From assembly GCA_009668945.1 (NCBI GenBank), contig SBEH01000001.1:305776-369775 (forward strand): a stretch of DNA of 64,000 bases, read 5' to 3'. Origin of the DNA: Actinomycetota bacterium. Its GTDB lineage: Bacteria > Actinomycetota > Coriobacteriia > Anaerosomatales > Anaerosomataceae. A program made the translations under genes and the position numbers. The notes under the pieces were generated by a model. It ran no database searches and had not been told where the DNA came from. It saw nothing but the letters and a program-made list of their open reading frames with translations. Of this stretch, positions 1 to 64,000 are shown one piece after another. How positions within the stretch are numbered: position 1 is the stretch's first letter; the number at the start of each line of letters is the position of its first letter.

Positions 1-1475
1 GTGCCCCAGCTCTTCTCCCCGTCCTCGCTCTCGATAAGCACGCGGGTGACCGCGCCGGTGCCCTTGCTCTCGTCGAGCACGCGCACCTTGAAGTCGGAGA
101 GTTCGATTGCCGAAAGCGCCGGGTAGAACTTGCCGATCGCGATCCGGAGCGCGCCGTCGAGCGCGTTCACGGGACCGTTGCCCTCGGCGGTGGCGATGAA
201 ACGCTTGCCACCGACGTGGATCTTGACCGTCGCCTCGGTGGTGACCTTGCCGTCCTCGCGCTTCTCCATCAGGCAACGGAAGCTCTCGAGCGTGAAGAAC
301 GGCTCGTACGTGCCGAGCTCCTTCTTGAGCATCACCTCGAGTGAAGCGTCCGCCGTCTCGAACGAGTAGCCCTTGTGCTCCAGGTCCTTGATCCCGTCGA
401 GCACGCGCGCCACGGTGGCCTGGTCGCCTGCCAGATCGATGCCGAGCTCCGCGGCCTTCATCGTGAGCGACGCGCGTCCCGCCAATTCGCTCACCACGAC
501 GCGCGCGAGATTACCCACGCGCGCAGGGTCGATGTGCTCGTATGCCTCCGGAAGCCGCGCTGCAGCGCTCGCGTGCACGCCGCCCTTGTGCGCGAACGCG
601 CTCGCGCCCACGTAAGGCTGGTGCGGGTTCGGCGCGATATTCGCGGTCTCCGCGATGAAGTGCGAGACCTCTGTGAGCAGCCGCAGCTGGTCCGCCGACA
701 CGCAGTCGTCGCCCATCTTGAGCACGAGCCCGGCGATGATCGCCATGAGGTCGGCGTTGCCCGCGCGCTCGCCGTAGCCGTTCGCGGTGCCCTGCACGTG
801 CGTGCAGCCTGCGTCGATGGCCACGAGCGAGTTCGCGACCGCGCACGCGCCGTCGTTGTGCGCATGGATGCCAAGCGTCACTCCCGGGAGCGCGCCTGCG
901 ACCTCGCGTACCACGCGCGCGACGGCCTGCGGCAACGTCCCGCCGTTCGTGTCACAGAGCACCACCGCGTCCGCGCCGGCTTCGGCAGCGGCACGACACA
1001 CCGACAGCGCGTACCCGGCATTGGCGGCGTAGCCGTCGAAGAAGTGCTCGGCGTCGAAGAACACGGTGCGTCCGCCCGCTTTCAGATGCGCGACGCTGTC
1101 CCGTACCATCCGCAGGTTCTCGTCGAGCGTGGCGTGGAGTGCATCGGTGACGTGCACGTCCCAGCTCTTGCCGAAGATGCACAGCGCCTCGCAACCGGTG
1201 TCGAGCAGCGTGCGCAGCCCCTCGTCCTCGGAAGCGGCGACTCCCTTGCGGCAAGTGGTGCCGAACGCCGAGATCTTCGCGGTGGCGAGGCTGAGGCTCT
1301 TCGCGCGCTCGAAGAACTCGATGTCCTTGGGGTTGGAGCCCGGGAAGCCGCCTTCGATGTAGTGCACGCCGAGGTCGTCGAGACGGGCCGCGATTCGCAG
1401 CTTGTCGTCGACTGAAAGCGACATCCCCTCCCGCTGGGTGCCGTCGCGAAGCGTGGTGTCGTAGAGCGTGACCAT
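1..1475 (-). CDS. cimA: citramalate synthase, C-terminus cut by window edge
   Basis: DRE-TIM metallolyase of the 2-isopropylmalate/homocitrate synthase family. It condenses acetyl-CoA with pyruvate to (R)-citramalate, giving a threonine-independent route to 2-oxobutyrate and isoleucine. The first residues read MVTLYDTTLRDGTQREG, the catalytic Arg/metal motif, and HAHND follows near residue 204 as the metal-binding histidine pair. A LeuA-type regulatory dimer domain fills the C-terminal third (VNALDGALRIAIG and following). About 491 residues are visible and the frame is open at base 1. The DTTLRDGTQ form, and the separate complete leuA with a leucine leader at 55.5-57.2 kb, favour CimA over a second LeuA. 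A GGAAGGA ribosome site precedes the ATG. It follows the PBP gene by 112 nt. Confidence 0.9.
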   Translation of the reverse strand, partial: MVTLYDTTLRDGTQREGMSLSVDDKLRIAARLDDLGVHYIEGGFPGSNPKDIEFFERAKSLSLATAKISAFGTTCRKGVAASEDEGLRTLLDTGCEALCIFGKSWDVHVTDALHATLDENLRMVRDSVAHLKAGGRTVFFDAEHFFDGYAANAGYALSVCRAAAEAGADAVVLCDTNGGTLPQAVARVVREVAGALPGVTLGIHAHNDGACAVANSLVAIDAGCTHVQGTANGYGERAGNADLMAIIAGLVLKMGDDCVSADQLRLLTEVSHFIAETANIAPNPHQPYVGASAFAHKGGVHASAAARLPEAYEHIDPARVGNLARVVVSELAGRASLTMKAAELGIDLAGDQATVARVLDGIKDLEHKGYSFETADASLEVMLKKELGTYEPFFTLESFRCLMEKREDGKVTTEATVKIHVGGKRFIATAEGNGPVNALDGALRIAIGKFYPALSAIELSDFKVRVLDESKGTGAVTRVLIESEDGEKSWG

Positions 1476-1514
1476 GGTGCGGTCCTTCCGAAGCGAATCC
1501 CCTGGTAACGGTCC

Positions 1515-1520
1515 ATTGTA
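1515..1520 (-). promoter_or_regulatory. possible -10 box for cimA
   Basis: On the minus strand the hexamer TACAAT, one mismatch from TATAAT, lies 40 nt before the cimA ATG. No convincing -35 is visible at 16-18 nt, so this rests on the -10 alone. Confidence 0.35.
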
Positions 1521-1547
1521 ACCGAGACTCGAACCGACCCACCGAAT

Positions 1548-1587: not shown

Positions 1588-3648
1588 CTAGTGCACCAGC
1601 TCGCAGCGCTGGGTGAGCGATCCCGCGGGGAAGACGAGTTCCATCGTCTCGGGACAGTCCGGACGCGCGATCTTGTACGACTGCGCGCAGACGGTGTAGA
1701 CCTCCATTCCGGGATCCACGCCCGGCTGGGTGGTGGGCGGCGCCACGGGCGCCACGCTCACCGATGACACCTGCATGAAGGCCTTCCATATCTGTGCCGG
1801 GAAGCTGCCGCCGGTCACGCGGATGCCATGGACGTTGTCCATCGGCACCTGAGCCTGCGGGTAGCCGACCCACACTGCGGTGCTCAGGTCGCCGGACCAT
1901 CCCACGATCCACGCGTCGCGCCACGACTGCGCGGTCCCGGTCTTCACCGCTCCCCACTGCCCGAAGTTCGCCTCCACCCCCGTGCCGCGCGTGAGTACCG
2001 CGTTCATCACGATCGCCATCGTGGTGGCGATCGGCTCGGAGATCGCCCGCGTGCCCTCGCGGTCCGGTGCGTACACGAGACTGCCTTCAGCGTCGGTCAC
2101 CTTGAGCACGCCGGATGGCTGAACCGCCGTGCCGCCATTGGCGATCGTCCCGAACGCCGAAGCCATCTCCAGCGGCGACACGCCCTTGTTCAAGCCCCCG
2201 AGCGCGATCGCGGGGTCGGGGTCGATCGGCGACGTGATGCCCATGCGGTGCGCGACGTCTACGACCTTGTCCGCACCGATCGCCGTGATGATGCGGGCGT
2301 ACACGGTGTTGATCGACCAGACAGTGGCCGTTTCGAGCGTGTACCAGCCGCCGGTGATCGAGTTCTCGTAGTTCTCGACGCGCCAGATCTCGTCCTTCAC
2401 CGGCGTCTCGAACGGAGTCGCCTCCCAGGGCGAGTCCATCGTGTAGCCCTGCTCGAGCGCGGCGGCGAGCACGAAGGGCTTGAACGCCGAGCCGGTCTGC
2501 CGCTTGCCTTGCGTGGCCAGATCGAACTGCTCGGCGTTGAAGTCCCGCCCGCCCACGATCGCCACCACCGCGCCGTCGCGCCACCGAACCGCGGCGATCG
2601 CCACCTCGGGGTCGGCCGGATCGGGCAGGATCGTCCGGGCGGCCGTTTCCGCGGCGCGCTGGGCAGCGGGGTCGAGTGTCGTGTAGATCCGCAGACCGCC
2701 CTTGTACAGCCGCTCGGAGCCGAGCCGCTCGAGCAGGTCCCGGCGCACGTACTCGACGAAGTACGGGGCGAACTGCGGCGTCGCCGTGTTGGTGGCGGCG
2801 TCTTTCAGGTTCAGCGGCTCGGCGGCCGCGAGTGCGGCCTCTTCGGCGGTGACGTACTCCTGGTCGCGCATCTCGCGCAACACGAGATTCCTGCGCTCGG
2901 TGGCGTCGGCGGGATTCGCGAACGGGTCGTAGCGCGTCGGCGACTGAATACACCCGGCCAGCAGCGCCGACTGTGCCAGGGTAAGGTCCGAGGTCGTCAC
3001 GCCGAAGAACCGCCGCGCCGCACTCTCCACGCCGTACGCGCCCCGGCCGAAGTACACGGTGTTGAGGTAGACACCGAGGACCTCGTCCTTGTCGGCACGT
3101 GTCTCGAGCTGCAGAGCGAGAAGCGCCTCCTCGATCTTGCGAGTGAGCGTGCGTTCGCCTTCGGTGAAGAGCAGCTTCACGGTCTGCTGGGTGATGGTCG
3201 AGCCGCCCTGGCGCACCTCGCCGGCCTGCGTGTTCACCGACAGCGCGCGGACGATGGCCTGCGTATCCACGCCCTTGTGCTCGTAGAAGCGCTTGTCCTC
3301 GATCGCCACGGTCGCATCCTTGAGCACCTGCGGGATGACGTCGTTCGGAACGACCGTGCGGTCCTCCGCGTCGTACCACTCGGCGAGCACCGTGCCATCG
3401 GCGGCGTAGACGATCGAGGTCTGGGCCACCTGGATGGCGTCGGGGTCGGCCTGCAGGTCAGGGAGAGTCGTGGTGAGGTGCATGAGGTACGCGCCGAAGC
3501 CGAGCAGTACCACAACGAGCACCGCGAGCGTGATCGAGACCGCTGCGAGCGCCTTGAGCAGCTTCGGCTTGATCGCCGGAGGCTGCCCGGGTTCGGGCGT
3601 GGGACGCGGCTCGCGCACGCGCGGGAGTATGCGGGTGGAGATCCTCAT
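1588..3648 (-). CDS. class A penicillin-binding protein (bifunctional GT51 transglycosylase / transpeptidase)
   Basis: Polymerises lipid II and cross-links peptidoglycan outside the membrane. The protein has 686 residues: a short basic, Pro-rich cytoplasmic tail, one membrane helix (about 31-55), then GT51 with EDKRFYEHKGVD (catalytic Glu117) and GGSTITQQ at 148-155. The transpeptidase domain carries all three signatures: S387-x-x-K390, S445-I-N447 and K569-T-G-T572. The Cys-containing tail after residue 640 (C654, C665, C682) resembles the short extracellular tails of actinobacterial PBP1/PonA. The open frame extends upstream to 4095, but ATG 3648 was chosen because it lies before the membrane helix and clear of the upstream ligase-like gene, which ends at 3686. 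Confidence 0.93.
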   Translation of the reverse strand: MRISTRILPRVREPRPTPEPGQPPAIKPKLLKALAAVSITLAVLVVVLLGFGAYLMHLTTTLPDLQADPDAIQVAQTSIVYAADGTVLAEWYDAEDRTVVPNDVIPQVLKDATVAIEDKRFYEHKGVDTQAIVRALSVNTQAGEVRQGGSTITQQTVKLLFTEGERTLTRKIEEALLALQLETRADKDEVLGVYLNTVYFGRGAYGVESAARRFFGVTTSDLTLAQSALLAGCIQSPTRYDPFANPADATERRNLVLREMRDQEYVTAEEAALAAAEPLNLKDAATNTATPQFAPYFVEYVRRDLLERLGSERLYKGGLRIYTTLDPAAQRAAETAARTILPDPADPEVAIAAVRWRDGAVVAIVGGRDFNAEQFDLATQGKRQTGSAFKPFVLAAALEQGYTMDSPWEATPFETPVKDEIWRVENYENSITGGWYTLETATVWSINTVYARIITAIGADKVVDVAHRMGITSPIDPDPAIALGGLNKGVSPLEMASAFGTIANGGTAVQPSGVLKVTDAEGSLVYAPDREGTRAISEPIATTMAIVMNAVLTRGTGVEANFGQWGAVKTGTAQSWRDAWIVGWSGDLSTAVWVGYPQAQVPMDNVHGIRVTGGSFPAQIWKAFMQVSSVSVAPVAPPTTQPGVDPGMEVYTVCAQSYKIARPDCPETMELVFPAGSLTQRCELVH

Positions 3649-3685: not shown

Positions 3686-5503
3686 TCACTTGCCGGCCTC
3701 CTCGAGGATGGCCTCGGCAGCCTCGACGGCGTTCTCCCGCGTGGGCTCCGGATCATCGATGGCAGATATGAGATCCAGCTGGACTCGCGCTTCGTCGTAG
3801 CGCCCGGTCTCTGCAAGGTACTGAGCATACTCCGCGCGAGCGATCGGATACGCGGGGTATCGCTTGAAGGCTTCCGCGAACGCGGAATCCACCTCCGCCG
3901 GGGTTCCCATGAAGTACTTGACCGCCCGAGCTCGCTCAAGTGCGTAGAACGGATCCCGCCTGTCAACGCGCACGGCTCGCGTGAGGCCTTGCATGTCCGC
4001 ATCCTGCCAGCCCGCGCCGGGATCGTCAGTGGCGGCCCAGCCCGCGTGCAATGCGGAGAGGTAGGCCATCCGCGCATCGAACGGCCACAGCGCACTCATC
4101 CTCGCGGCACCTGAAGCAAGAGCCGGGGAGCGGTCCTCGCCGATGATGTCGTATGGCGCCCGGCAGACTGCGTTGAGCGCATACACCGCGCTTGCCAGTG
4201 CGACCACCGCTAGTCCGGCGGCCGCAGCCTGCTCACGCCACCCCTGGGGAAGCCTAGACAGAAGCGCTCGGTCACCGCCAGGGCGCGCGCAGAGACCCAC
4301 CATGACTGCGAGAACGGGCAGCACGTGAAGATCCAGCGGTGCGTAGAGCCCCAGTACCAGAGCGCACACGACCGATGCCCCCGCTGCCCGTGCGTCATGA
4401 TCGGATCTGTCGACCCACCAGGCACGGACGGCACTGGTGATGTACCAGAACCACAGCATCAGCCCGACAACACCCGTGGACACGAGGATCCACACCAGGA
4501 AGTTGTGCGGATCGGCCGCATTCGGACCCAGGAGAACCGAGTGCCCGGCGGCAGCCATCTCGGGCGTGCGCACCGCAGCAGACGCCGGCCAGTAGGCATC
4601 CGGCCCCCAGCCGGTCAGCGGGCGCTGCGCGGCTGCTACCAGACCCTGTGTCCACATCGCCACCCGTCCCCCGAGAGGCAGCGCGCTGTCGGCTTCCAGG
4701 AAGTGCCCTGGCAGAACGCTGAGGCCGCCTATCGCTACCAGCACGAGCACGGCGAGCGCGGCGGCCTTGCTCCTAGCGGGCGCGCGCCACCGGGTCGCCA
4801 TCGCGAGGACCGCCCATAGACCGACCACGACTAGGGCGGCCCGCGACCGTATCGCGCCAAGCGCGAACAACGCTAGCCCGGCCGAGGCGAACCGCACCAG
4901 CCTCTCAGGCCTCGTGGCCTCGTGCGCCGGTGGAACCACCCATGGGAGAAGCAGCGCGATAGCGATTCCGAGATCGGATGAGTTCGGCAGAGTGCCGCCG
5001 CGTACGGTGTCGCCGGTGACCGCGAGGTGGATGAGGGCGTAGACCGACTCGGTGGACACGACGACCCACGCGTACCGCCTCAGAAGTGGAACGACTGAGG
5101 TACGCGCCGCGGCCGAAGCCAGGGCGATCGCAGTCAGCGCGGCCAGTGTCATCCAACCTAGTCTGTTGGTAGGATCGCCACTCAGCGCCGCCCACACACG
5201 GCCCGATAGCACCGAGGCAAGCAGCGTCCAGACGAGGAAGAGCACCCAGGCCAGCGAGCCGCCGAGTCTCGGTCGCCGAGACGACCGGGTCGCCAGCAAC
5301 GCCACCGCAGCGCCCGCGCCTGCGACACCCGTCCACAGCGCTACCAAGTCCATGCGCAGGGTCTTCTCGGCAACCGCGGGAACGAACAATGCTCCGATAC
5401 CCGCGACTATCACGAAGACGGCGAGGCGCGACGGCGTTCCGGCGAGCGCAGTCGAAGCAGACTCACGGTGACTCGGTGAAGGGCCTCTCTTCTTCGCTGA
5501 CAT
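3686..5503 (-). CDS. O-antigen ligase/Wzy-like membrane protein with C-terminal repeat region (copy 1)
   Basis: A polytopic membrane protein of 605 residues with about ten hydrophobic segments in residues 28-430, followed by a soluble C-terminus of about 150 residues. The family signature is the large extracellular loop with GWGPDAYWPA, then DPHNFLVWILVSTGVVG. Relatives (Wzy_C/PF04932) polymerise or ligate lipid-linked glycans. The tail has alternating Ala/Arg/Tyr helices of TPR type (near 520-600: YPIARAEYAQYLAETGRYDEA). It lies between ilvE and the PBP gene on the same strand. The donor and acceptor cannot be told. With no LPS genes here, an LPS ligase is less likely than polymerase or transfer of another surface glycan. 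Confidence 0.82.
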   Translation of the reverse strand: MSAKKRGPSPSHRESASTALAGTPSRLAVFVIVAGIGALFVPAVAEKTLRMDLVALWTGVAGAGAAVALLATRSSRRPRLGGSLAWVLFLVWTLLASVLSGRVWAALSGDPTNRLGWMTLAALTAIALASAAARTSVVPLLRRYAWVVVSTESVYALIHLAVTGDTVRGGTLPNSSDLGIAIALLLPWVVPPAHEATRPERLVRFASAGLALFALGAIRSRAALVVVGLWAVLAMATRWRAPARSKAAALAVLVLVAIGGLSVLPGHFLEADSALPLGGRVAMWTQGLVAAAQRPLTGWGPDAYWPASAAVRTPEMAAAGHSVLLGPNAADPHNFLVWILVSTGVVGLMLWFWYITSAVRAWWVDRSDHDARAAGASVVCALVLGLYAPLDLHVLPVLAVMVGLCARPGGDRALLSRLPQGWREQAAAAGLAVVALASAVYALNAVCRAPYDIIGEDRSPALASGAARMSALWPFDARMAYLSALHAGWAATDDPGAGWQDADMQGLTRAVRVDRRDPFYALERARAVKYFMGTPAEVDSAFAEAFKRYPAYPIARAEYAQYLAETGRYDEARVQLDLISAIDDPEPTRENAVEAAEAILEEAGK

Positions 5504-5527: not shown

Positions 5528-6442
5528 CTACACCCGGTCCAGCCACTCCTCGTACTCGGCCTCTTCGCCGCGGACGATGCGCGCGTACGCCTCCTGGAGC
5601 TCGCGCGTGATCGGTCCGGGCTCGCCGAGCGAGTAGCCGTCCACCGAGCGCACCGGCACGACCTCGGCGGCCGAGCCGGTCATGAAGAACTCGTCGGCGG
5701 CGTAGAGGTCGGTGCGCACGAGCGACTCTTCGATGACGGGATAGTCGAGATTGTCCGCGATCACCATGATCGAGTCGCGGGTGATGCCCTCGAGGATGCC
5801 GTCGGAAACCGGTGGGGTGGAGATCACGCCGTCGCGCACCACGAACAGGTTCTCGCCGGTGCCCTCGCAGACCCTGCCTTCTTCGTTGAGCAGAATGGCC
5901 TCGTTGTAGCCGTGGCGGTTGGCCTCGATGCGCGCGAAGCTGCTGTTGAGGTACTGGCCCGTGGCCTTGATGGCCGGCGGCGTGGAGTTGATGCCGCGCT
6001 GGCGCCAGCTCGACACGCCCACGTCCACGCCGTGCTTGAGGCCCTCCTCGCCGAGGTACGCTTCCCACGGCCAGGCGGCGATGAACATCTGCACCGGTGC
6101 GGGGACGGGGTCGAGGCCCATCACGCCGTATCCGCGGAAGACCACCGGGCGGATGTAGCAGCTCTTGAGCTTGTTCGCGCGGATGAGCTCGCGCTTGGCC
6201 TCCATGATCTCCTCGGCCGAATACGGGAGGTCCATGTAGAGCATCTTCGCGCTGCGGAGCAGCCGTTCGGCGTGATCGCGGCTGCGGAAGATCGCGGGGC
6301 CGTCGGCGGTCTCGTAGCACCGCTCGCCCTCGAAGACGCCGCTGCCGTAGTGGAGCGCGTGGGTGAGGACATGTACCTTCGCATCGGCCCAGGGCACGAG
6401 CGACCCGTCCATCCAGATGAATTCCATCTCCGGCAGCGCCAT
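5528..6442 (-). CDS. ilvE: branched-chain amino acid aminotransferase
   Basis: Fold-type IV PLP aminotransferase that makes Val, Leu and Ile from their 2-oxo acids with glutamate, the last step for the ilv/leu genes in this window. The 304 residues include HYGSGVFEGERCYET (substrate loop), the conserved Arg in YIRPVVFRGYG, the PLP lysine in PPAIKATGQYLNS, EGTGENLFVV and GILEGITRDSI. The ATG at 6442 was chosen over upstream starts because it follows GGAGGGGAG at 9 nt and begins the usual MALPEMEFIWMDG. The next gene on this strand is the ligase-like protein at 3686-5503, 24 nt away, which suggests co-transcription. Confidence 0.95.
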   Translation of the reverse strand: MALPEMEFIWMDGSLVPWADAKVHVLTHALHYGSGVFEGERCYETADGPAIFRSRDHAERLLRSAKMLYMDLPYSAEEIMEAKRELIRANKLKSCYIRPVVFRGYGVMGLDPVPAPVQMFIAAWPWEAYLGEEGLKHGVDVGVSSWRQRGINSTPPAIKATGQYLNSSFARIEANRHGYNEAILLNEEGRVCEGTGENLFVVRDGVISTPPVSDGILEGITRDSIMVIADNLDYPVIEESLVRTDLYAADEFFMTGSAAEVVPVRSVDGYSLGEPGPITRELQEAYARIVRGEEAEYEEWLDRV

Positions 6443-6503: not shown

Positions 6504-6848
6504 TCAGACGATGTCGGAGAGCCAGGAGCGCAGGCCGACGGAGAGCGCAGGCATAGAGTGTATGGCAATCGCCCAGATCATCTCGGCGTCGATAGTGTCG
6601 TAGCCGTGCGCGAGACGGTTGCGCATACCGATGATCTTCGACAGGTCCGGAATCCGATCGCCTGCGTCGTCGCATATCCCATCGAGAGCATTCAGTGCCT
6701 CGCCGATGATGAGCAGCTCGCGCTCCACTGACGAGCGGTGCAAGCGGCTCGCGGTGAACGTCGCCGAGTCGATCTCGGCCGTGATCGCGGAGATCGCTTC
6801 GGCCGCATCTATCGCATCGGTCAGCAGCACCTTCGCACTACGCCGCAT
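6504..6848 (-). CDS. HepT-like (HEPN, DUF86) toxin
   Basis: 114 residues, all helical in composition, with the HEPN RNase signature RNRLAHGY at 76-83. R76-x4-H81 is the catalytic pair, and Y83 is the position modified by adenylylation in characterised HepT proteins. It pairs with the nucleotidyltransferase immediately upstream: the ATG at 6848 lies inside the last codons of that gene (11-nt overlap), which implies translational coupling. By the established MntA/HepT (type VII) model, HepT cleaves RNA and its partner silences it by transferring AMP to the Tyr. Both toxin residues are intact, so it is probably functional. It sits upstream of ilvE on the same strand. Confidence 0.85.
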   Translation of the reverse strand: MRRSAKVLLTDAIDAAEAISAITAEIDSATFTASRLHRSSVERELLIIGEALNALDGICDDAGDRIPDLSKIIGMRNRLAHGYDTIDAEMIWAIAIHSMPALSVGLRSWLSDIV

Positions 6849-7311
6849 ACACCGACACCTTGCTCGCGTCGAGTTCGTCGGCAAGGTACGGGTTGGTCAC
6901 CGCGCTCACCATCACGAGGTCCACCCGGCGTCCGAGGATTGCCTCCAGTTCCTCGGCGAATGCCCAGTACGGGTGATCGAAGCCGGACTGCGGAACCGGG
7001 AGAAACTCGACCAGGAAGTCGATGTCACTGTCGGACGTGAAGTCCTCCCGAAGGGCCGAGCCGAATACATCAAGACGACTGACCGAATGGCGTGCGCACG
7101 CGGCCGTGATCTCCGTCGCATGCTGACGCAACAGTGCGCGCCCGTTCGATCGACCCCGTCCAAGCCACGCTTCCACGTCGGCCGCTCGCACACGCCACAA
7201 CCTCCCCACCTTGAGCGCGGGGAGATCGCCTGCACGCACGCGGTTGTACACGGTGCGTTCCGACACGCCCAGATACCGGGCCACGGTCTCGATGCTGAGT
7301 AGTTCCTCCAT
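6838..7311 (-). CDS. HTH (excisionase-type) + MntA-like nucleotidyltransferase fusion, probable antitoxin
   Basis: 157 residues in two domains. Residues 1-52 are a MerR/excisionase-type winged HTH (LSIETVARYLGVSERTVYNRV, then GRLWRVRAADVEAWL). Residues 60-157 are a minimal nucleotidyltransferase with G84-S85-x10-D96-x-D98 (FGSALREDFTSDSDID), the catalytic MntA signature, all residues intact. In the known pair the enzyme adenylylates HepT to neutralise it. Here the same chain also carries a DNA-binding domain, and repeats lie just upstream (7330-7353), so it probably represses its own promoter. The ATG 7311 has no ribosome site but lies 6 nt behind a -10-like box, so the message may be leaderless. 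Confidence 0.85.
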   Translation of the reverse strand: MEELLSIETVARYLGVSERTVYNRVRAGDLPALKVGRLWRVRAADVEAWLGRGRSNGRALLRQHATEITAACARHSVSRLDVFGSALREDFTSDSDIDFLVEFLPVPQSGFDHPYWAFAEELEAILGRRVDLVMVSAVTNPYLADELDASKVSVYAA

Positions 7312-7366: not shown

Positions 7367-8368
7367 CTACTCCTCCGGTGGCTCGCCGCCCAGCACACGC
7401 TTGAGCACCGCCGGACGCGAAGCCAGCGCGACCCAGCCGAGGCTGACGCTCCACCAGAGCGTCGCTACGCGCGTGACGAGTGTCGCCGCCGACGCGGCGG
7501 CCGCCGGCATTCCGGTGGCGACGAGGATGCCGGCCATCGATGCCTCGGTGAGCCCGATACCGCCTGGCAGGAACGAGAACGCACCGGCGATGGTCGCCAC
7601 CGCGTATACCGAGACACTCGCCGCCCAGCCGAGCGCGTCGAAGCCGAGCGCGCGAATGCACAGCACGAGGCCGATGCCCTCTAGCCCCCACGCGAGCAAC
7701 GAGACCGGCACCGACCACGCGAGCGTGCGCCAGTGCAGCGCTCGCGAGAGCGTTTCGGCGATCGCCTGCGCGGAGCCCTCGTGCTTGCGCGACCACTCCT
7801 GCCGGCGCACGAGCTTGAGCGCGAGCGAGTGGAACCACGGCGCCCCCGCGAGCGCGGTACCGCCCACAATCACCGCCGTCCAGGCGACGAGCACCGGGGC
7901 CGAGCCGCCGAGGGCCGCCAGACCGCCGAGTGCGAGCACGCACACCGCGATGAGATCCGCCACCCGCTCGGCGAAGACGAGCGGGATGCCGTGGCTCATC
8001 GGCATGCCGCCAACCTCGCGCGCGAGCCACGGCTTGAGGACCTCCCCCACTCTGCCGGGCGTGACGCTCATCGTCTGACCGGCGACGTGGAGGTACAGCG
8101 CGTCGCGCGTGCGCACCGGATGTCCGAGCACGCGCATGAGCGCACCCCAGCGGAGCGCACGCACGACGAAACCTGCGAGGCCGAGCAGCAGCATCCACGC
8201 AAGCGTCGGCGGCGGGAAGCCGCGGAGCGCCGATGCAACCTCCGAGCCGTCGCCGAGTACGATGAGCACCGCGTACACCACGCCGCTCATAAGCGCTGCG
8301 ATCAAGACCGCACGAATGAGGCGCCGCGGCCCAAAGATGCGCTCGCCAGAGCCGGACGCCGCGGCCAT
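7367..8368 (-). CDS. lysylphosphatidylglycerol synthase TM-region (UPF0104/AglD-like) integral membrane protein
   Basis: 333 residues with about eight hydrophobic helices and no catalytic soluble domain. It matches the flippase-like membrane module of MprF/AglD-type proteins (RALRWGALMRVLGHPV, MSVTPGRVGEVLKPWLA and FAERVADL are the usual conserved blocks, near residues 65-145). Stand-alone members are associated with lipid or polyprenyl-linked sugar translocation, but the substrate is unknown here. It begins 3 nt after the leuB stop and is probably co-transcribed with the leuB/ligase-like pair. The aminoacyl-transferase half of MprF is absent, so lysyl-PG synthesis should not be assumed. Confidence 0.75.
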   Translation of the reverse strand: MAAASGSGERIFGPRRLIRAVLIAALMSGVVYAVLIVLGDGSEVASALRGFPPPTLAWMLLLGLAGFVVRALRWGALMRVLGHPVRTRDALYLHVAGQTMSVTPGRVGEVLKPWLAREVGGMPMSHGIPLVFAERVADLIAVCVLALGGLAALGGSAPVLVAWTAVIVGGTALAGAPWFHSLALKLVRRQEWSRKHEGSAQAIAETLSRALHWRTLAWSVPVSLLAWGLEGIGLVLCIRALGFDALGWAASVSVYAVATIAGAFSFLPGGIGLTEASMAGILVATGMPAAAASAATLVTRVATLWWSVSLGWVALASRPAVLKRVLGGEPPEE

Positions 8369-8371
8369 CAG

Positions 8372-9484
8372 CTAGCCCTGCAGCCGCTCCGCCACGAGCG
8401 AGCCCATCGCGTCGGTGCCGACGGTCTTCTGCGGCAGCGTGGAGCTGTCCGCGATGTCGCGGGTGCGCCACCCCTCGGCCAGCACGTTCTCGATGGCGGC
8501 CGCAAGCGCGTCGGCGGCCTCGTGCATCGAGAAGCTGTGCCGCAGCATGAGCTCCACCGATAGCAGCATCGCGAGCGGGTTCGCGATCCCCTGCCCCGCG
8601 ATGTCGGGCGCCGAGCCGTGCGACGGCTCGTAGAGCGCGGTGCCGTCGCCGAGCGAGGCCGAGGCGAGCATGCCGAGCGAGCCCGTGAGCATCGATGCTT
8701 CGTCGGAGAGGATGTCGCCGAACATGTTCTCGGTGACCATCACGTCGAACTGCGCCGGATAGCGCACGAGCTGCATCGCCGAGTTGTCCACGAGCTGGTC
8801 GATGAGCTCCACATCCGCGTACTCCGCCGTGTGCAGGCGGTGCACGACCTCACGCCACAGCCGCGACGTCTCGAGCACGTTGGCCTTGTCCACCGAATGC
8901 ACGCGGTTCCTGCGCGTTCTCGCCGCCTCGAATGCCTTGCGGGCGATGCGCTCGATCTCGAACTCGCGGTAGTCCATCGTGTCGTACGCGCGCATGCCCG
9001 CGGCGCCGTGCGCGCCCGCGCCCTCCACGCCCGTCTCACGCGCGCGAGCGCCGAAGTACAGGCCGCCGGTGAGCTCGCGGACGATGAGCATGTCCACGCC
9101 CTCGAGGAACTCGGGCTTGAGTGAGCTCGCATCGCGCAGCGCGTCGAAGATGCGCACCGGACGCAGGTTCGCGTACAGACCGAGCGCCTTTCGGATGCCG
9201 AGCAGCCCCTGCTCCGGCCGCGGCTTCGCCGGGTCGGTGGTGTCCCACTTCGGCCCGCCGATGGCGGCGAGCAGCACCGCGTCGGAGGCGTACGCGCAGG
9301 TGAGCGTGGCCTCGGGAAGCGCCGTGCCGGTGGCGTCGATGGCCGCGCCGCCGAGGAGCGCCTGCTCGAACTCGAACGTCACGCCGCAGCGGTCGCCGAT
9401 GACGCCCAGGACCTTCAAGGCCTCGGCGGTGATCTCCGGTCCGATGCCGTCGCCCGGCAGCAGGCAGATGCGATAGGTGGTCAC
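8372..9484 (-). CDS. leuB: 3-isopropylmalate dehydrogenase
   Basis: NAD-dependent beta-decarboxylating dehydrogenase of leucine synthesis, 370 residues, full length. Signatures: [11 protein letters not shown] at 8-18, [16 protein letters not shown] (substrate-specific helix), [14 protein letters not shown], and the metal/NAD block [20 protein letters not shown] near 240-260 followed by [21 protein letters not shown] start at 9484. The start overlaps the stop of the upstream ligase-like gene as GTGA, so translation is coupled to a membrane glycan enzyme. It is separated from leuC/leuD by over 36 kb. Confidence 0.96.
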
Positions 9485-11472: not shown

Positions 11473-11553
11473 GGGCGTGCTCCCCTACCAACGGCTGTGG
11501 GTGCAGGATACACTAGGCACGCCCGCACCAGCCCACGGCACGGAGAAGAGCTC
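11473..11553. promoter_or_regulatory. divergent intergenic region, probable promoters
   Basis: 81 bp between oppositely oriented starts. TACACT at about 11507-11512 could be a plus-strand -10, but no clear -35 partner is seen in either direction. Shine-Dalgarno sites border both ends: GGGGAG for the minus gene and GGAGAAGAG for the plus gene. Confidence 0.3.
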
Positions 11554-13493: not shown

Positions 13494-13495
13494 GG

Positions 13496-15377: not shown

Positions 15378-15378
15378 C

Positions 15379-49987: not shown

Positions 49988-50055
49988 TAAACGAATCACC
50001 TCCCATTCGCCCTGAATCTAGAACAAGCCGAAGCAATCCGGCATCACACACTCGT

Positions 50056-50091: not shown

Positions 50092-50096
50092 TCAAT

Positions 50097-51440: not shown

Positions 51441-51448
51441 GTGCACCT

Positions 51449-55501: not shown

Positions 55502-57055
55502 TCAGACCTCGTCCTCCACGCTCGGCGCCTCGGCGGCCACTAGCAGCCGGTTCAGCGCATTCACGTACGCCTTGGCGCTCGACACGATGATGTCGTGATG
55601 CGCACCCCGGCCGGTGAACGTGCGGCCGTCCTCGCTCTTCACGCGGATGGTGACCTCGCCCACCGCGTCGATGCCGCGAGTAACGCTCTGCACGGAGAAC
55701 TCGGTGAGGTCGTTGGGCTTCTGCACGATGCGGTTGATGGCGCGGTACACCGCGTCGACCGGCCCGTTGCCGTGGCTGGAGTCGATGTAGCTCACGCCGT
55801 CGCGGTCGATGAGCTCGACCGTCGCCGTCGGGATGCCCGGATCGCCGCAGTTCACGTGTACCTGCTCGAGGTGGTATACCTCGCCGACCATGCGCTCGGC
55901 CTCGCCCACCAGCGCCTCGAGGTCCTCGTCGTAGACTTCCTTCTTCTTGTCAGCCAGCTCGAGGAATGCGGTGTGAATGCCCTCGAACTCCTCGTCCTCC
56001 ATCACGTAGCCGAGCTCCGCCAGACGGTGCCGGAGCGCCGCCCGGCCGCTTCGCGCGGTGAGCACGATTGAGCTCCCGCCGGCACCCACGTCGGCCGGGT
56101 CGATGATCTCGTAAGTGGAGCGCTCCTTGAGCACGCCGTCCTGGTGGATGCCGCTCGAGTGCGCGAAAGCGTTCGCGCCCACGATCGCCTTGTTCGGCTG
56201 CACGAGCATGCCGGTGATGCCCGAGACGAGTCTTGACGCGCGCACGAACTCCTTCGTGTTGATGTGCGTGTCCACGCCGAAGACGTCGGGGCGCATCTTG
56301 AGCGCCATCACGACCTCTTCCATCGCCGTGTTGCCGGCTCGTTCGCCGAGACCGTTGATCGTGCACTCGATCTGCCTCGCACCGGCTCTGACACCCGCGA
56401 GCGAGTTGGCGGTGGCCATGCCGAGGTCGTTGTGGCAGTGGACCGAAACGGTGACGTCCTCGATGCCTTTGACGTTGTCCATGAGGCCCGCGATGAGTGC
56501 GCCGAAGACCTCCGGATAGCTGTAGCCGGTGGTATCCGGAATGTTCACGACAGTTGCGCCCGCGCCTATCACCGCCTCGATCATGCGGTAGAGGAATGCG
56601 GGCTCGGCGCGGCCGGCGTCCTCGGCGTAGAACTCCACGTCCTCGACGAAGGAGCGCGCGAGCTTCACGGCCGCCACGCCGCGCTCTACGGCCTCGTCGC
56701 GGCTGATGCGCAGCTTGTCCTTGAGGTGGCTTTCGGAGACGCCGATGCCGGTGTGGATGCGCGGGCGCTTGGCGCCCTTGAGCGCTTCCGCGGCGCGCTC
56801 GATGTCGGCCGGGATGGCGCGGGAGAGGGCGCATACGACAGCCGCGTCGCCCACCTCGGCGGCGATGCGGCGCACGCTCTCGAAATCGCCGGGACTCGAT
56901 ATCGGGAAGCCGGCCTCGATGACGTCCACGCCGAGCCTGAGGAGCTGGCGGGAGATCTCGAGCTTCTCGGTGGTGTTCATGCTCGCGCCGGGACTCTGCT
57001 CCCCGTCGCGAAGCGTGGTGTCGAAGATGAAGACGCGGTCGATGGAAGTGCTCAC
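55502..57055 (-). CDS. leuA: 2-isopropylmalate synthase
   Basis: 517 residues, full length. [16 protein letters not shown] near 11-26 carries the catalytic/metal Arg-Asp, [14 protein letters not shown] near 205-218 the metal His pair, [19 protein letters not shown], then the C-terminal regulatory domain ([32 protein letters not shown]) that binds leucine for feedback. GTG start at 57055. It catalyses acetyl-CoA + 3-methyl-2-oxobutanoate to 2-isopropylmalate, the first leucine step. Preceded by a leucine-rich leader peptide at 57141-57209, and followed directly by the copy 5 membrane gene. Confidence 0.97.
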
Positions 57056-57494: not shown

Positions 57495-59075
57495 CTACAG
57501 CTCGATGCTCCAGGCCTCCGTGACCTCGGCTTTGGCCTCCACGGCCGCAAGCAGGTCATCCGGAATCGCCGTGTCGATGTTGAGGCCCATGAGCGCCGTT
57601 CCTCCGGCCTCCGTCCGGCCCACCTGCATCGAGGCGATGTTGATGCCGGCCTCGCCGAGAGCCGTGCCGACCTTGCCCACAACGCCCGGCACGTCGGCGT
57701 ACTCGAGGAAGAGCATGTGCGCGGAAGGCGCCATGTCGATGTCGAACTCGTTGAAGAGCACCATACGCGGCTCGTTTCGCTTGCCGATCAGAGTCGCGCC
57801 CATCTTGAACTCGCGCCCGCCCGCCTTGGCCACCACGACCATCAGCGACACGTAGTCGAGCGAGTCGGCGCGCTTGACCTCGGATACCGCGATCCCGCGC
57901 TGCTCGGCGTAGTGGTTCGCGTTCACGAAGTTGATGGAGTCCTGAGTGACCACCGTGAGCAGACCCTTGAGCAGCGCGGTCTTGAGGATGCGCGTGTCCA
58001 GCCCAGCGAGGTGCCCGATGAAGTGCACCTCGATCTCGCTCACCGGCCCGCGGGCGACCTGCGCGATACCCGCGCCCAGACCTTCGGCGACTGGCATGAA
58101 CGGCCCCACGGCCTCCATCACTTCCGGCGGCACCGGCGCGATGTTCACCGCGGTCGAGACCATCTCGCCGCGAAGTCCGGCCGCCACGAACTCGGCGATC
58201 TGCTCGCCGGCGCGGTCCTGCGCCTCTTCGGTGGACGCGCCGAGGTGCGGTGTCACTATCACCTGGTCGAAGGCGAACAGCGGCGAGTCGGTGCACGGCT
58301 CGACCTCGTAGACGTCGATGCCGGCCGAAGCCACTTTGCCGCTCTCGAGCGCCTTGATGAGCGCCGCCTCCTGATAGATGCCGCCGCGTGCCGTGTTCAT
58401 CAGGCGCACGCCGTCCTTCATCTTGGCGAACTGCCCGTCGCCGAACATGCCGATGGTCTCCTTCGTCTTCGGCAGGTGCACCGTGATGAAGTCGGCCTGC
58501 GGCAGCAGCTCGTCCAGCGACGCCGCGTACCCGATGCCCAGCTGTGCCGCGCGCTCCTCGGTGATGTACGGGTCGTACGCCACGACCTTCATCCCGAGCC
58601 CTTTCGCACGCTCGGCCACGAGCGTGCCGATGCGGCCCAGGCCCACGAGTCCGAGCGTCTTGTCCAGCACCTCGGTGCCGGTGAACTTGGAGCGCTCCCA
58701 CTTGTTCGCGTGCATTGACGCGTTCGCCTGCGGGATGTTGCGCGCCTGCGCGAGCATGAGCGCGATAGTGTGCTCGGCCGCCGACACGATGTTCGAAGTC
58801 GGCGCGTTGCACACGATCACTCCGCGCTCGGTGGCCGCCACGACGTCGACGTTGTCCACGCCCACGCCCGCACGCCCGACGATCTTGAGGTTCACCCCTG
58901 CCTCGAGCACCTCGCGCGTGGCCTTGGTGGCCGAGCGCACGATGAGTCCGTCGTAGGCGGGGATCCTCGCCACCAGTTCCTCGGGCGAGAGGCCCGTGAT
59001 CACGTCGACCTCGAACTCCTTCTTGAGCAGGTCGATGCCGCTGTCGGCGATCTTCTCAGCTACCAGTACCTTCAT
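57495..59075 (-). CDS. serA: D-3-phosphoglycerate dehydrogenase
   Basis: 526 residues, the long three-domain type. NAD-binding: LGLVGLGRIGTLVAERAKGLG near 144-164, then active-site RGGIYQEAALI, the Glu near 269 and HLGASTEEAQ (His). An intervening ASB-like domain (about 320-450) and a C-terminal ACT domain (MLFLEYADVPGVVGKVGTALGEAGI near 455-480) that binds serine. Converts 3-phosphoglycerate to 3-phosphohydroxypyruvate. Overlaps nothing; the class V aminotransferase precedes it by 4 nt. Confidence 0.96.
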   Translation of the reverse strand: MKVLVAEKIADSGIDLLKKEFEVDVITGLSPEELVARIPAYDGLIVRSATKATREVLEAGVNLKIVGRAGVGVDNVDVVAATERGVIVCNAPTSNIVSAAEHTIALMLAQARNIPQANASMHANKWERSKFTGTEVLDKTLGLVGLGRIGTLVAERAKGLGMKVVAYDPYITEERAAQLGIGYAASLDELLPQADFITVHLPKTKETIGMFGDGQFAKMKDGVRLMNTARGGIYQEAALIKALESGKVASAGIDVYEVEPCTDSPLFAFDQVIVTPHLGASTEEAQDRAGEQIAEFVAAGLRGEMVSTAVNIAPVPPEVMEAVGPFMPVAEGLGAGIAQVARGPVSEIEVHFIGHLAGLDTRILKTALLKGLLTVVTQDSINFVNANHYAEQRGIAVSEVKRADSLDYVSLMVVVAKAGGREFKMGATLIGKRNEPRMVLFNEFDIDMAPSAHMLFLEYADVPGVVGKVGTALGEAGINIASMQVGRTEAGGTALMGLNIDTAIPDDLLAAVEAKAEVTEAWSIEL

Positions 59076-59079: not shown

Positions 59080-60225
59080 CTACTCCCCCATGAAGACGGC
59101 TTCGGCGGCCTTGATGCCGCTGCCGCGCTCGAACGCGTACCCCAACTCGGCGAGCGTCATCTCGAGCCCGGCGAGCGTAGTGATGATGTCGAACTCCCCG
59201 AAATAGCCGAGATGCCCCACGCGGAAGATGCGGCCCGCGTAGTCGTCCTGACCGCCGGCGATGGTGATCCCGTACTTGTTCTTGAGGATGCTCACGATCT
59301 TCTTGCCGTCCACACCTTCGGGCACCCACACGGGCGTCACGGCCGAACCCCGGCCCTCGGCGGGGGCGAACAGCTTCAGACCCAGCGCCTCGCACCCGCG
59401 ACGAGTGGCCTCCGCCAGCCGGGAGTGGCGGGCGATGGTGTTCTCCAGCCCCTCCTCGCGGATCATGCCCAGCGCCACGTTCAGCCCGAGAACGAGTGAC
59501 ACGGCCGGAGTGAACGGCGTCGTGTCGTTGGCGATGTTCTTCTTGTACTTCATGAAGTCGAAGTAGAACTTCGGCAGCGTGGAGCGCTCGTACGCGCGCC
59601 AGGCCTTCTCGGAGACGGTGCATGCGGCCAGACCCGGCGGAAGCATGAGGCCCTTCTGCGAGCCGGTCATCACGATGTCGAGACCCCACTCGTCGGTCTT
59701 GCACTCCACCGCGCCGATTCCCGTGATCGAGTCAACGATGAGCACGCACTCGGGATACTCGCGCACGATCGAACCGATAGCCTGCACGTCGTTGAGCACA
59801 CCCGAGGAAGTCTCGCTCTGCGTGACGATCACGCCGCGCACGCCCGGGTTCTCCTCAAGCGCGGCGGCCACGTCGGCGGGATCCACCACGGAGGTCCACT
59901 CGTACTTCAGGTCGATGACCGACAGCCCGTAGACCTCGGCGATGCCCTTCTGGCGGTTGCCGAACTTGCCGTTGCGGCAGACGATCACGGTGTCGCCCGC
60001 GTAGAACGAGTTCGCGATCGCGGCCTCCATCACGCCCGTGCCCGACGAGGCGAAGAGCAGTACGTCGCCTTCGGTCTGGAACACGTACTTGAGACCCTCG
60101 ATGGCCTGCTTGAAGGCCGCCGAGAAGTCCGGCGTGCGGTGGTGGATGATGGGCGCGGCCTGCGTGAGCAGGACCTCCGCCGGTACCGGGGTCGGCCCCG
60201 GCGTCATCAGGTACTTCTTCTGCAT
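59080..60225 (-). CDS. class V aminotransferase (alanine-glyoxylate/serine-pyruvate type)
   Basis: 381 residues. TPGPTPVPAEVLL at 8-20, ASSGTGVMEAAIANSF near 59-74 for PLP, VTQSETSSGVLNDV, VDSITGIGAVE and the Schiff-base Lys191 in MTGSQKGLMLPPG; AGGQDDYAGRIFRVGHLG near 340 for the substrate carboxylate. Sequence places it in the alanine-glyoxylate group, yet it is 4 nt before serA, so it may supply the phosphoserine-aminotransferase step. No SerC-type gene is in the window. ATG 60225 has GGAAGAAG just before it. Confidence 0.82.
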   Translation of the reverse strand: MQKKYLMTPGPTPVPAEVLLTQAAPIIHHRTPDFSAAFKQAIEGLKYVFQTEGDVLLFASSGTGVMEAAIANSFYAGDTVIVCRNGKFGNRQKGIAEVYGLSVIDLKYEWTSVVDPADVAAALEENPGVRGVIVTQSETSSGVLNDVQAIGSIVREYPECVLIVDSITGIGAVECKTDEWGLDIVMTGSQKGLMLPPGLAACTVSEKAWRAYERSTLPKFYFDFMKYKKNIANDTTPFTPAVSLVLGLNVALGMIREEGLENTIARHSRLAEATRRGCEALGLKLFAPAEGRGSAVTPVWVPEGVDGKKIVSILKNKYGITIAGGQDDYAGRIFRVGHLGYFGEFDIITTLAGLEMTLAELGYAFERGSGIKAAEAVFMGE

Positions 60226-60312: not shown

Positions 60313-61317
<1,005 letters not shown>

Positions 61318-61371: not shown

Positions 61372-61857
61372 TTATGCGTCGCGACTGCCGCGCGCCAGGG
61401 CGATCTTGCCGGTCCGTGCGAGCTCCTTGATTCCGTATGCCCGGAGCAGGTCCTCCATGGCGGCGAGCTTGTCGCTCGTGCCGGTCGCCTCGATCGTGAG
61501 CGAGTTCTTGCCGACGTCCACGATCTTGGCCCGGAAGACGTTCGCGATCTCGATGATCTCGTGGCGCCGTTCGGGAGCGGCGTTCACCTTGTAGAGCACC
61601 AGTTCGCGGTCGATCATGTCCTTCGGGTCCAGGTCCTGGATCTTGATGACGTTGATGAGCTTGTGAAGCTGCTTGGTGATCTGCTCGATCGGCGTCTCTT
61701 CGGCCGAGACCACGATCGTCATGCGCGAGAGCGTGGGGTCCTCGGTCTCGCCCACGGCGAGCGAGTCGATGTTGAAGCCGCGGCGGGCGAAGAGTGACGC
61801 CACGCGCGTGAGCACTCCGGGCTTGTTCTCCACGAGCACTGACAGCGTGTGCTTCAT
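61372..61857 (-). CDS. ilvN: acetolactate synthase small (regulatory) subunit
   Basis: 161 residues from ATG 61857 (GTG 61860 is also possible). N-terminal ACT domain: LSVLVENKPGVLTRVASLFARRGFN, SLAVGETEDPTLSRMTIVV, and EQITKQLHKLINVIKIQDL. The C-terminal half (ELVLYKVNAAPERRHEIIEIAN) is the activation domain. Binds valine and activates IlvB. The start overlaps the ilvB stop by 1 nt, behind GGAGG. Confidence 0.95.
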   Translation of the reverse strand: MKHTLSVLVENKPGVLTRVASLFARRGFNIDSLAVGETEDPTLSRMTIVVSAEETPIEQITKQLHKLINVIKIQDLDPKDMIDRELVLYKVNAAPERRHEIIEIANVFRAKIVDVGKNSLTIEATGTSDKLAAMEDLLRAYGIKELARTGKIALARGSRDA

Positions 61858-63605
61858 CACTCCATCACCTCCTCGAAGAGCTCGTCGTCGAGCATCTCGG
61901 ACACCGGGCCACCCGGGATGCCGCCGAGCATCTCGTCGATGGAGCCGCCGGGCGCCACCATCGGGAACACGTTCTCCTCGCGCTCGACCCGCACGTCCAC
62001 GATCGCGGGCCCGTCGAAGTCGAAGGCCGCCTTGAGGGCGCGGTCAAGCTCGGACAGCTTCGTCACGCGCGCCCCGAAGGCGCCGTACGCCTCGGCGAGC
62101 TTGACGAAATCCGGGCAGTCCTGCGGCAGCGTCGAGGACGAGTACCGGTGCTCGTAGAAGAGCTCCTGCCACTGCCGCACCATGCCGAGGTAGCCGTTGT
62201 TGAGGATCACGACCTTCACCGGCAGCTTGTTGATGCTCGCCGTGGCCAGCTCCTGCGAGTTCATCTGGATCGAACCGTCGCCTGCGATGTCCACCACGAG
62301 GTAGTCGGGCCGGCCGAGCTGCGCGCCGATCGCCGCCGGCAGGCCGAAGCCCATGGTGCCGAGGCCGCCGGAGGACGCCCACGTGCGCGGCTCGCGGATC
62401 TTGAGGTACTGGCACGCCCACATCTGGTTCTGGCCCACCTCGGTGCAGTAGACTGTCGGCCGGTCCTTCGTGAGCTCGCGAACGCGCTCGACGACCTGCT
62501 GCGGCAGAATGGCGCCGTCTTGCGCGTGGTAGTGGAACGGGTAGCGCGTGCGCCAGTCGTCGATCACGCGCATCCAGGCCTCGGTACGCGGCTCGGCGTT
62601 CATCTTGCGCAGCTCAGCGGTAATGCCGGTGATCACGGCTTTCGCATCGCCCACTATCGGAAGATCTACGCGGCGGTTCTTGCCGATCTCCGCGGGATCG
62701 ATATCGGCGTGGACGACCTTCGCTTTCGTCGCGAACGTGGCGAGCTTGCCCGTCACGCGGTCGTCGAAGCGCACGCCGATGCCGAAGAGCAGGTCGGTCT
62801 CGGTGATCGCGTAGTTGGTGAACTTGCCGCCGTGCATGCCGGGCATGCCCACGAAGAGATGATGGTCCTCCGGAAACGCGCCCTTGCCCATGAGGGTCGT
62901 CACCACAGGCAGCTGCATAAGCTCAGCGAGCTCCTTGAGTTCCTTCGAGGCGTTGGCGGCCAGCACGCCGCCGCCCACGTACAGCAGCGGCTTGCGCGCC
63001 TTGGAGATGAGCGTGGCGGCGTCCTTGATCTGCTTCGCGTGGCCCTTGACGGTGGGCTTGTAGCCCGGCAGGTTCACCCGCTCGGGGTACTTGTACGCCA
63101 CCTCACCGCGCGAGATGTCCACCGGCAGGTCGATGAGCACGGGCCCCGGACGGCCGGTAGAGGCGATGTGGAACGCCTCGGCCATGATCTCGGGAATCTG
63201 CTCGGAATCATCACACAGGTAGTTGTGCTTGGTGATCGGGATCGTGATGCCGGTGATGTCGGTCTCCTGGAACGCGTCCGTGCCGAGGACGTGGGTGGCC
63301 ACCTGGCCGGTGATCACCACTAGCGGCACGGAGTCCATGTACGCGTTCGCGATGCCGGTGACGGTGTTGGCCGCCCCCGGACCGCTCGTGACGATCACGA
63401 CGCCGACCTTGCCCGTCACACGCGCGTACGCGTCGGCCGCGTGCGCCGCGCCCTGCTCGTGACGCGTGAGGATGACGCGGATGCCCTCGGTGTCGTACAG
63501 CGCGTCGAACAGTGGCAGTACCACGCCGCCGGGGTAGCCGAATACGACTTCCACTCCCTCTGCCTGGAGTGATTTCACGATGGCCTGTGCGCCGGTCACT
63601 TTCAT
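61857..63605 (-). CDS. ilvB: acetolactate synthase large (catalytic) subunit
   Basis: 582 residues, ThDP-, FAD- and Mg-dependent. VFGYPGGVVLPLFDAL near 19-34, catalytic Glu in LTRHEQGAAHAADAYAR near 46-62, TSGPGAANTVTGIANAYMDSVP near 75, and Mg/ThDP binding in DIAGDGSIQMNSQELATA and NNGYLGMVRQWQELFY near 445-490. Makes acetolactate/acetohydroxybutyrate. ATG 63605 follows AGGAGGTG at 6 nt. ilvD lies 60 nt upstream on the same strand. Confidence 0.97.
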   Translation of the reverse strand: MKVTGAQAIVKSLQAEGVEVVFGYPGGVVLPLFDALYDTEGIRVILTRHEQGAAHAADAYARVTGKVGVVIVTSGPGAANTVTGIANAYMDSVPLVVITGQVATHVLGTDAFQETDITGITIPITKHNYLCDDSEQIPEIMAEAFHIASTGRPGPVLIDLPVDISRGEVAYKYPERVNLPGYKPTVKGHAKQIKDAATLISKARKPLLYVGGGVLAANASKELKELAELMQLPVVTTLMGKGAFPEDHHLFVGMPGMHGGKFTNYAITETDLLFGIGVRFDDRVTGKLATFATKAKVVHADIDPAEIGKNRRVDLPIVGDAKAVITGITAELRKMNAEPRTEAWMRVIDDWRTRYPFHYHAQDGAILPQQVVERVRELTKDRPTVYCTEVGQNQMWACQYLKIREPRTWASSGGLGTMGFGLPAAIGAQLGRPDYLVVDIAGDGSIQMNSQELATASINKLPVKVVILNNGYLGMVRQWQELFYEHRYSSSTLPQDCPDFVKLAEAYGAFGARVTKLSELDRALKAAFDFDGPAIVDVRVEREENVFPMVAPGGSIDEMLGGIPGGPVSEMLDDELFEEVME

Positions 63606-63665
63606 GCGTTCACCTCCTGCTGGTGCCTCCGATTCCAGGGTTCGCAGAAATGCGAACCTGCGTGC

Positions 63666-64000
63666 TCACTCGAGCACTGCGCCCTTGTCGGCGCTCGTCA
63701 CGAACCGTCCGTACCGCGCGAGATAGCCGGTCTTGACCTTTGGATCGGGGGCTGTCCACTCGCGCGCGCGGACTGCGAGGAACTCGTCGGTGACCTCGAG
63801 GGTGAGCGTGCCGGCATCGATGTCGATCGAGATGGTGTCGCCCTCCTCCACGAGCGCAATCGGCCCGCCCTCGGCGGCCTCCGGGCTCACGTGCCCGATC
63901 GACGCGCCGCTCGTGGCGCCGCTGAAGCGGCCGTCGGTGATGAGCGCAACGCTCTTGGCGAGCCCCATGCCCTTCACCGACGAGGTCGGCGAGAGCATCT
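63666..64000 (-). CDS. ilvD: dihydroxy-acid dehydratase, C-terminal part (window edge)
   Basis: The last 110 residues or so are visible; the N-terminus lies beyond base 64000. [31 protein letters not shown] is the conserved C-terminal block of IlvD, and [19 protein letters not shown] is its usual end. Converts dihydroxy acids to 2-oxo acids for Val, Leu and Ile. First gene of the visible ilv operon. Confidence 0.93.

Follow-up and report, generated by a model that had tools for sequence, protein, structure and literature searches.

Surface-glycan and electron-transfer genes have probably opened the leucine half of a branched-chain amino acid and serine superoperon repeatedly in Anaerosomatales

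Anaerosomatales (OPB41, class Coriobacteriia) is a poorly known order of anaerobic actinobacteria. A 64,000-nucleotide stretch of an Anaerosomatales genome (contig SBEH01000001.1, positions 305,776 to 369,775; G000:C11:305776-369775 in our numbering, within a 1.92-Mb assembly), here called the window, encodes enzymes of branched-chain amino acid and serine biosynthesis, interspersed with genes for surface glycans and multiheme cytochromes. The most probable explanation is that, in this order, modules for surface and electron-transfer functions repeatedly opened a compact superoperon in the part that follows serA, with the leu genes as their flanks. Pfam and NCBIfam profile searches of the window proteins placed the ilv, leu and ser genes on the minus strand in a conserved order, as an earlier note made from the sequence alone had described; the same order is seen in relatives. 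In the direction of transcription, the leucine half of the window reads leuA-(Wzy_C)-leuC-(TPR, NHL, three multiheme cytochromes)-leuD-(Wzy_C, Wzy_C, glycan island, Wzy_C)-leuB-(LPG_synthase_TM, MNT, HepT)-ilvE-(Wzy_C, PBP1)-cimA. The glycan, cytochrome and island inserts are thus those that the note listed. The window has two toxin-antitoxin pairs, and MNT-HepT is the only one that separates amino acid genes outside the island.

The ancestral gene order was explored in relatives and outgroups. The leu region was obtained whole or in parts for 29 of the 31 genomes searched, with genes labelled against the window proteins; G026, in which the leuA match runs off the contig, and G028, which has no strong leuA match, were omitted from the gene-order set. 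Most relatives are assembled in many contigs, and the genes counted were called by a simple program trained on labelled genes, which leaves gaps (G014 and G024, for example) and missed leuA in G022. The order of the leu genes is kept wherever it is readable on one contig, and the whole run from ilvD to cimA is free of inserts in two relatives, G007 and G029. For the outgroup comparison, 80 leuC loci were used, the first six of which were treated as Anaerosomatales' own and the other 74 as outgroup. In the outgroup, leuD lies at most 250 bp from leuC in 50 of the 68 loci where both were found, leuB lies at most 250 bp from leuD in 47 of 55, and both spacings are close in 36 loci. All of these gaps are below 2 kb, the largest being 1.9 kb, in L097 (a locus with a Wzy_C-like gene, possibly itself from Anaerosomatales), and 1.7 kb. 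A Thermoleophilia locus reads leuA-leuC-leuD-leuB-ilvE-cimA, with a leuB match that is just 34% identical. Parsimony, using states set by hand and a tree from the operon's own proteins, gave 5 to 7 changes per junction and a root that is intact at four of the five junctions, leuB/ilvE being ambiguous. These gene orders point to a compact ancestral run, ilvD-ilvB-ilvN-ilvC-aminotransferase-serA-leuA-leuC-leuD-leuB-ilvE-cimA, which agrees with the proposal of the earlier note that one run was opened repeatedly at intercistronic points.

The openings are unevenly distributed along this run. Counting a junction only where both genes could be read on one fetched piece, no inserted genes were found at ilvD/ilvB (0/23), ilvB/ilvN (0/24), ilvN/ilvC (0/24), ilvC/aminotransferase (0/24) or aminotransferase/serA (0/25). 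Inserted genes were found at leuA/leuC in 7 of 26 genomes, leuC/leuD in 14 of 19, leuD/leuB in 14 of 26, leuB/ilvE in 9 of 25 and ilvE/cimA in 10 of 25. This gives 54 opened junctions of 121 from leuA to cimA versus 0 of 120 from ilvD to serA, with serA/leuA (4/25) outside both sums. In the trp operon, used as a control in 20 genomes, 2 of 115 junctions were opened, both by one lipoprotein-like family. Fisher tests that ignore kinship gave p values of 5e-20 against ilvD-serA and 1e-16 against trp. Opening therefore appears, from the gene orders, to be almost confined to the leucine half of the operon, downstream of serA. Assembly error is unlikely as the cause of the whole arrangement, since insertions at the same junctions recur across many genomes.

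The nature of the inserted genes bears on whether this region of the chromosome is simply a neutral hot spot that tolerates any insertion. We counted 283 inserted genes between leuA and cimA, of which the commonest are NHL (20), TPR (15), LPG_synthase_TM (10), pglC-GT (9) and PBP1 (9), together with the cytochrome-like families cytc1 (18), cytc2 (12), cytc3 (9) and cluster d8 (9). The 19 inserted genes that have no relative among the genes compared would suit a hot spot, as would the lipoprotein-like gene of 235 to 238 amino acids that sits at trpF/trpB in two genomes (L187 of G001 and L196 of G012). A hot spot is nevertheless improbable in our judgment, given that the ilv half is almost untouched, as is the trp operon, which in the window's own genome lies at a distance of 24 kb, and that at least 194 of the 283 genes carry surface-glycan, membrane, cytochrome, TPR, NHL or toxin-antitoxin labels.

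Related modules occur at different junctions. A hand count among the matches listed puts 33 of the 161 Wzy_C matches, spread over 20 of the 31 genomes, within the leu cluster or immediately adjacent to it. Relatives of pglF (E 1e-60) number 21 copies in 18 of the 31 genomes, with one copy leu-linked in 10 of the 18 (also counted by hand). The glycan cassette is found at leuD-leuB in the window, G022 and G024 and at leuC-leuD in G005, G011 and G015; in G018 and G030 it lies upstream of leuD, in G025 next to leuD, and in G003 behind PBP1. In the Wzy_C and NHL trees, related copies from different junctions group together, and in the NHL tree the leu-locus copies also group with those of a second polysaccharide locus. 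At that locus, the TPR-NHL-cytochrome module is present in the compact genome G007 as well as in G009 and G017. A VapBC-like pair (PIN_3, with a VapB match below cut-off) is located at leuA-leuC in five genomes and is absent from that junction in G015 and G006, congeners of two of its carriers.

The second polysaccharide locus is itself conserved (L177, L178, L179, L180 and L181) and holds a phosphomannomutase-like gene, glycosyltransferases, Wzy_C, TPR and mostly NHL. Three of these five examples contain the TPR-NHL-multiheme module, and four encode a protein with both domains of what we take to be Rex-type regulators.

The comparison of G005 and G015, two members of one genus, revealed the replacement of a whole block. 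Their nucleotide identity is 94.6% over the 11.7 kb from ilvD to leuA and 94.8% over leuC, after which 22.4 and 20.2 kb, respectively, have no alignment at 80% over 200 bp. Alignment resumes over the 10.3 kb from pglF to leuB, at 92.8%. The break begins 28 bp past the leuC stop codon in G005, and a more sensitive search of the block recovered 1.5 kb at 64.6%, in reversed orientation, and 134 bp at 77.6%. Block proteins are 25 to 56% identical or unmatched, versus mostly 90 to 100% for the flanks. On alignment, this difference looks like a cassette exchange. Mosaic identity is also seen within the amino acid genes. By serA protein identity, the nearest relatives fall into two groups (86 to 98% within, 76 to 79% between), whereas ilvE groups differently, with the window protein 92% identical to that of G001, 88% to that of G013 and 72 to 80% to those of the remaining relatives. 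Both patterns conflict with those of the other operon genes, which suggests recombination.

To assess how the separated leu genes may be expressed, a loose -10 pattern was sought 20 to 75 bp upstream of leuC, leuD, leuB, ilvE and cimA. A -10-like element was found for 58 of the 65 genes that lie behind an insert versus 19 of the 67 behind a native neighbour (13 of these 19 being ilvE), the background in coding sequence being 160 of 2187. In the window, the element precedes leuC, ilvE and cimA, and is absent before leuD and leuB; the three elements are conserved in relatives that have other upstream neighbours. The earlier note had named independent promoters and terminators at each junction, with no read-through, as a finding that would refute its interpretation. 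Promoter-like elements do lie behind most inserts, and the two stretches scanned held no more terminator-like sites than expected by chance.

Some newcomers are nevertheless tightly joined to their hosts. The leuA TGA directly abuts the GTG of the Wzy_C gene WZYe, where the earlier note had read an overlap; leuD starts 13 bp after cytc1; and WZYb and leuB share GTGA at positions 9481 to 9484, as the note had it. From this spacing, coupling is likely for leuA-WZYe, cytc1-leuD, WZYd-WZYc and WZYb-leuB. The GTGA overlap of pglE with mazF, also claimed before, is present if pglE starts at GTG 39393, which yields 406 amino acids, close to the 402 to 408 of G003, G005, G011, G015 and G018. These contacts (cytc1-leuD, WZYb-leuB and leuA-WZYe) would be expected if the insertions were functional, with shared transcripts co-regulating the supply of amino acids and the output at the surface or in respiration. 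That explanation appears quite unlikely, because leuC, ilvE and cimA have -10-like elements of their own, the run is interrupted by opposite-strand genes, and partners and junctions vary among relatives. The opposite-strand genes belong to the 31-kb island, which makes simple read-through from leuD to leuB unlikely, and together with the -10-like elements they speak against a single ilvD-cimA transcript. Co-regulation of amino acid and glycan genes, which the note suggested as potential, is thus not supported as a general rule.

The leuB gene of the window is a special case. Of the 26 genomes in which this junction is readable, 12 have leuD and leuB as neighbours, and in 10 of these the two genes share a 4-bp overlap. 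A leuB-type leader element, searched with at most one mismatch, gave three matches in 19 whole genomes, and the reversed control pattern gave one. Two of the matches precede leuB, in G005 and G003, and the third precedes WZYb in the window; the distance to the start codon is 32 nt in both G005 and the window. By eye, related leaders were recognized before leuB in G001, G002, G004, G013 and G015, the case of G010 being less clear. Most likely, judging from these leaders, WZYb was inserted behind the leuB leader and now separates it from leuB. A search with Rfam at gathering thresholds, over the window and two 20-kb flanks, detected no leader RNA except an upstream c-di-GMP-II riboswitch.

Several results weigh against repeated opening of a compact run. 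The parsimony counts are near those of shuffled labels at leuA/leuC (7 versus 7.8) and leuC/leuD (5 versus 6.4), the other three junctions being more informative (6 versus 8.7 to 10.3), and the underlying tree rests on proteins that are partly mosaic. G006 and G016 are collinear and show no exchange, with ordinary divergence (77.8% over 10.4 kb) and module genes that are merely more divergent (59 to 85%) than the leu and ilv genes (92 to 97%); G001 versus G002 is mixed, so that exchange is seen in one congeneric pair only. No integrase or transposase family was found among the window proteins (Pfam, E 0.001), and in a self-comparison no repeat flanks the ends of the island, the six matches all falling inside it; neither mark of an integrative mobile element was thus found in the window by these searches. 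The comparison of -10-like elements takes no account of phylogeny or of the greater gap length that comes with an insert. In positions 1-18000 and 42001-62000, strict scans for sigma-70 promoters and scans for terminators gave results at the level of shuffled sequence, and the promoters thus rest on the loose -10 pattern and its conservation. Finally, a cytochrome block between leuC and leuD is found widely across Anaerosomatales, which indicates that this opening is old; under the refuting condition set by the earlier note, an interspersed order that is ancestral among relatives, this counts in part against its interpretation.

This last point is the basis for the alternative that the interspersed order, at least the leuC/leuD cytochrome block, was ancestral in Anaerosomatales and that compact genomes arose by loss. 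The interruption of leuC/leuD in 22 of 27 scored genomes (hand-set states, contig ends included) and the grouping of compact G007 with the block carriers G006 and G016 favor it. We consider it unlikely, as outgroup loci are near-contiguous at leuC/leuD and the parsimony root is intact there, and an ancestral block alone would explain neither the other junctions nor the G005/G015 difference.

Under repeated opening of a compact superoperon, the conserved leu genes would serve as fixed flanks, between which modules are gained, lost, moved among junctions and, in at least one pair, swapped. The most likely route of swapping would be homologous recombination, either within the leu genes at the flanks or within module genes that are shared. 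A leu gene once cut off would usually have its own promoter-like leader, and the operon would dissolve into several units; in the window, leuB instead has a Wzy_C gene between it and the leuB-type leader, overlapping its start. The sequences themselves show the gene orders, one block replacement, the similarity of the leaders and the mosaic patterns of identity; the recombination route, the activity of the promoters and selection for change at the cell surface are our inferences.

Table 1. Features of the window, with the evidence for each
Feature	Position	Strand	Evidence and remarks
ilvD, C-terminal part	63666..63998	-	Pfam ILV_EDD_C; remainder beyond window, N-terminal domain at C11:370059-371009
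ilvB	61857..63605	-	Pfam TPP enzyme domains
ilvN	61372..61857	-	Pfam ALS_ss_C, ACT
ilvC	60313..61311	-	Pfam KARI_N/KARI_C
Class V aminotransferase	59080..60225	-	Pfam Aminotran_5; top NCBIfam match BhcA, below cut-off
serA	57495..59075	-	TIGR01327 above cut-off
leuA	55502..57055	-	TIGR00973 above cut-off
WZYe, Wzy_C membrane protein	53627..55501	-	Pfam Wzy_C; start codon abuts leuA stop
leuC	52292..53557	-	TIGR02083 above cut-off; 69-bp leader holds -10-like TAGAAT
TPR, NHL and three multiheme cytochromes (6, 12, 11 CxxCH)	46757..52177	-	Pfam; CxxCH counts
leuD	46249..46743	-	Pfam Aconitase_C; NCBIfam equivalog TIGR02084 just under cut-off; behind cytochrome gene
WZYd (44409-46214) and WZYc (42437-44416), Wzy_C proteins	42437..46214	-	Pfam
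31-kb glycan island	11554..42430	both	Pfam
PglC/D/E/F-like genes, within glycan island	36302-42430		Pfam
mazEF, inside glycan cassette between pglD and pglE	38816-39396		Pfam
leuB-type leader element GTGTATCCTGCNCCCACA, before WZYb	11496..11513	-	Pattern search
WZYb, Wzy_C and TPR	9481..11472	-	Pfam; GTGA overlap with leuB
leuB	8372..9484	-	TIGR00169 above cut-off
LPG_synthase_TM membrane protein	7367..8368	-	Pfam
MNT-HepT toxin-antitoxin pair	6504..7311	-	Pfam HepT-like, NTP_transf_2
ilvE	5528..6442	-	TIGR01122 above cut-off; -10-like TACACT upstream
WZYa, Wzy_C and TPR	3686..5503	-	Pfam
Class A penicillin-binding protein (transglycosylase/transpeptidase)	1588..3648	-	Pfam
cimA, 3' end cut by window	3..1475	-	TIGR00977 above cut-off; -10-like TACAAT upstream

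Five window proteins have a Wzy_C domain over the Pfam cut-off. The structure model of WZYb, with a mean predicted local distance difference test score of 63.9, is too weak for a test of the ligase fold, and its best Foldseek matches listed are TPR proteins. The multiheme cytochromes adjoin NHL and TPR proteins, as in putative extracellular electron transfer modules, judging from Pfam and CxxCH motifs. The GC content of the island is 0.63 over 11554-36297 and 0.692 over 36302-42430, versus 0.665 over ilvB-leuA. Three paralogues in the island (17775-20326 and 22326-23660) have no Pfam match; the predicted structure of one of them (19073-20326) resembles glycosyltransferases such as MshA.

Upstream of ilvD, locus L084 contains a further leuA/leuC/leuD/leuB-like set, 34 to 45% identical to the window genes, which possibly serves another pathway. 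The c-di-GMP-II riboswitch (L084:7531-7614, minus strand) precedes L084:3022-7428 on the same strand, itself upstream of ilvD, the product of which has 1468 amino acids, 37 CxxCH motifs and an F5/8C domain. A second c-di-GMP-II riboswitch was found in G007 (L177:17190-17273, plus strand); it is followed, after about 0.7 kb, by the gene of another multiheme protein, with a called start at 17941.

In capsule and O-antigen loci, a variable glycan block lies between conserved housekeeping genes and is exchanged between close relatives. A different block between near-identical flanks, as in such variable surface loci, was found in G005/G015 and not in G006/G016, with G001/G002 mixed. The present locus differs in that successive genes of a single amino acid operon form the flanks, that insertions occur at more than one junction, and that cytochrome modules are part of the block exchanged in the G005/G015 pair. 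Mosaic operons, and operons broken up by insertion, have foreign genes inside a conserved operon; the present case differs in that insertion is recurrent across an order, affects one half of an operon and is dominated by few functional classes. NHL/TPR/multiheme clusters are described for Dethiobacter alkaliphilus (PMC10376724), whereas here the module is embedded in the leu operon or adjoins a polysaccharide locus with Wzy_C. Within the same order, Anaerosoma tenue and Parvivirga hydrogeniphila have multiheme cytochromes, some of them clustered, that PMC9686372 links to Fe(III) reduction; its main text does not contain the words leucine, operon, NHL or O-antigen, and a link to leu genes is not described in those words. 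Among the matches listed from the open-licence literature, judged mostly from titles and the openings of abstracts, the arrangement was not found described, which is weak evidence of novelty.

More tentatively, and with slightly less than even confidence, the leucine half may be a platform for surface variation, in which leu genes act as homology arms by which cells swap glycan and cytochrome cassettes alike, and leu genes that have been set free capture promoters or share them with the newcomers. If so, surface sugars and electron-transfer equipment would be changed in a single step. The relatives form a natural series from an intact operon to one dissolved by insertions, and hence a testbed for operon break-up and for promoters arising at new junctions, in which one can also ask whether surface and electron-transfer traits travel together. 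If repeated opening of the leucine half is true, amino acid genes would act as insertion sites for genes of cell-surface remodelling.

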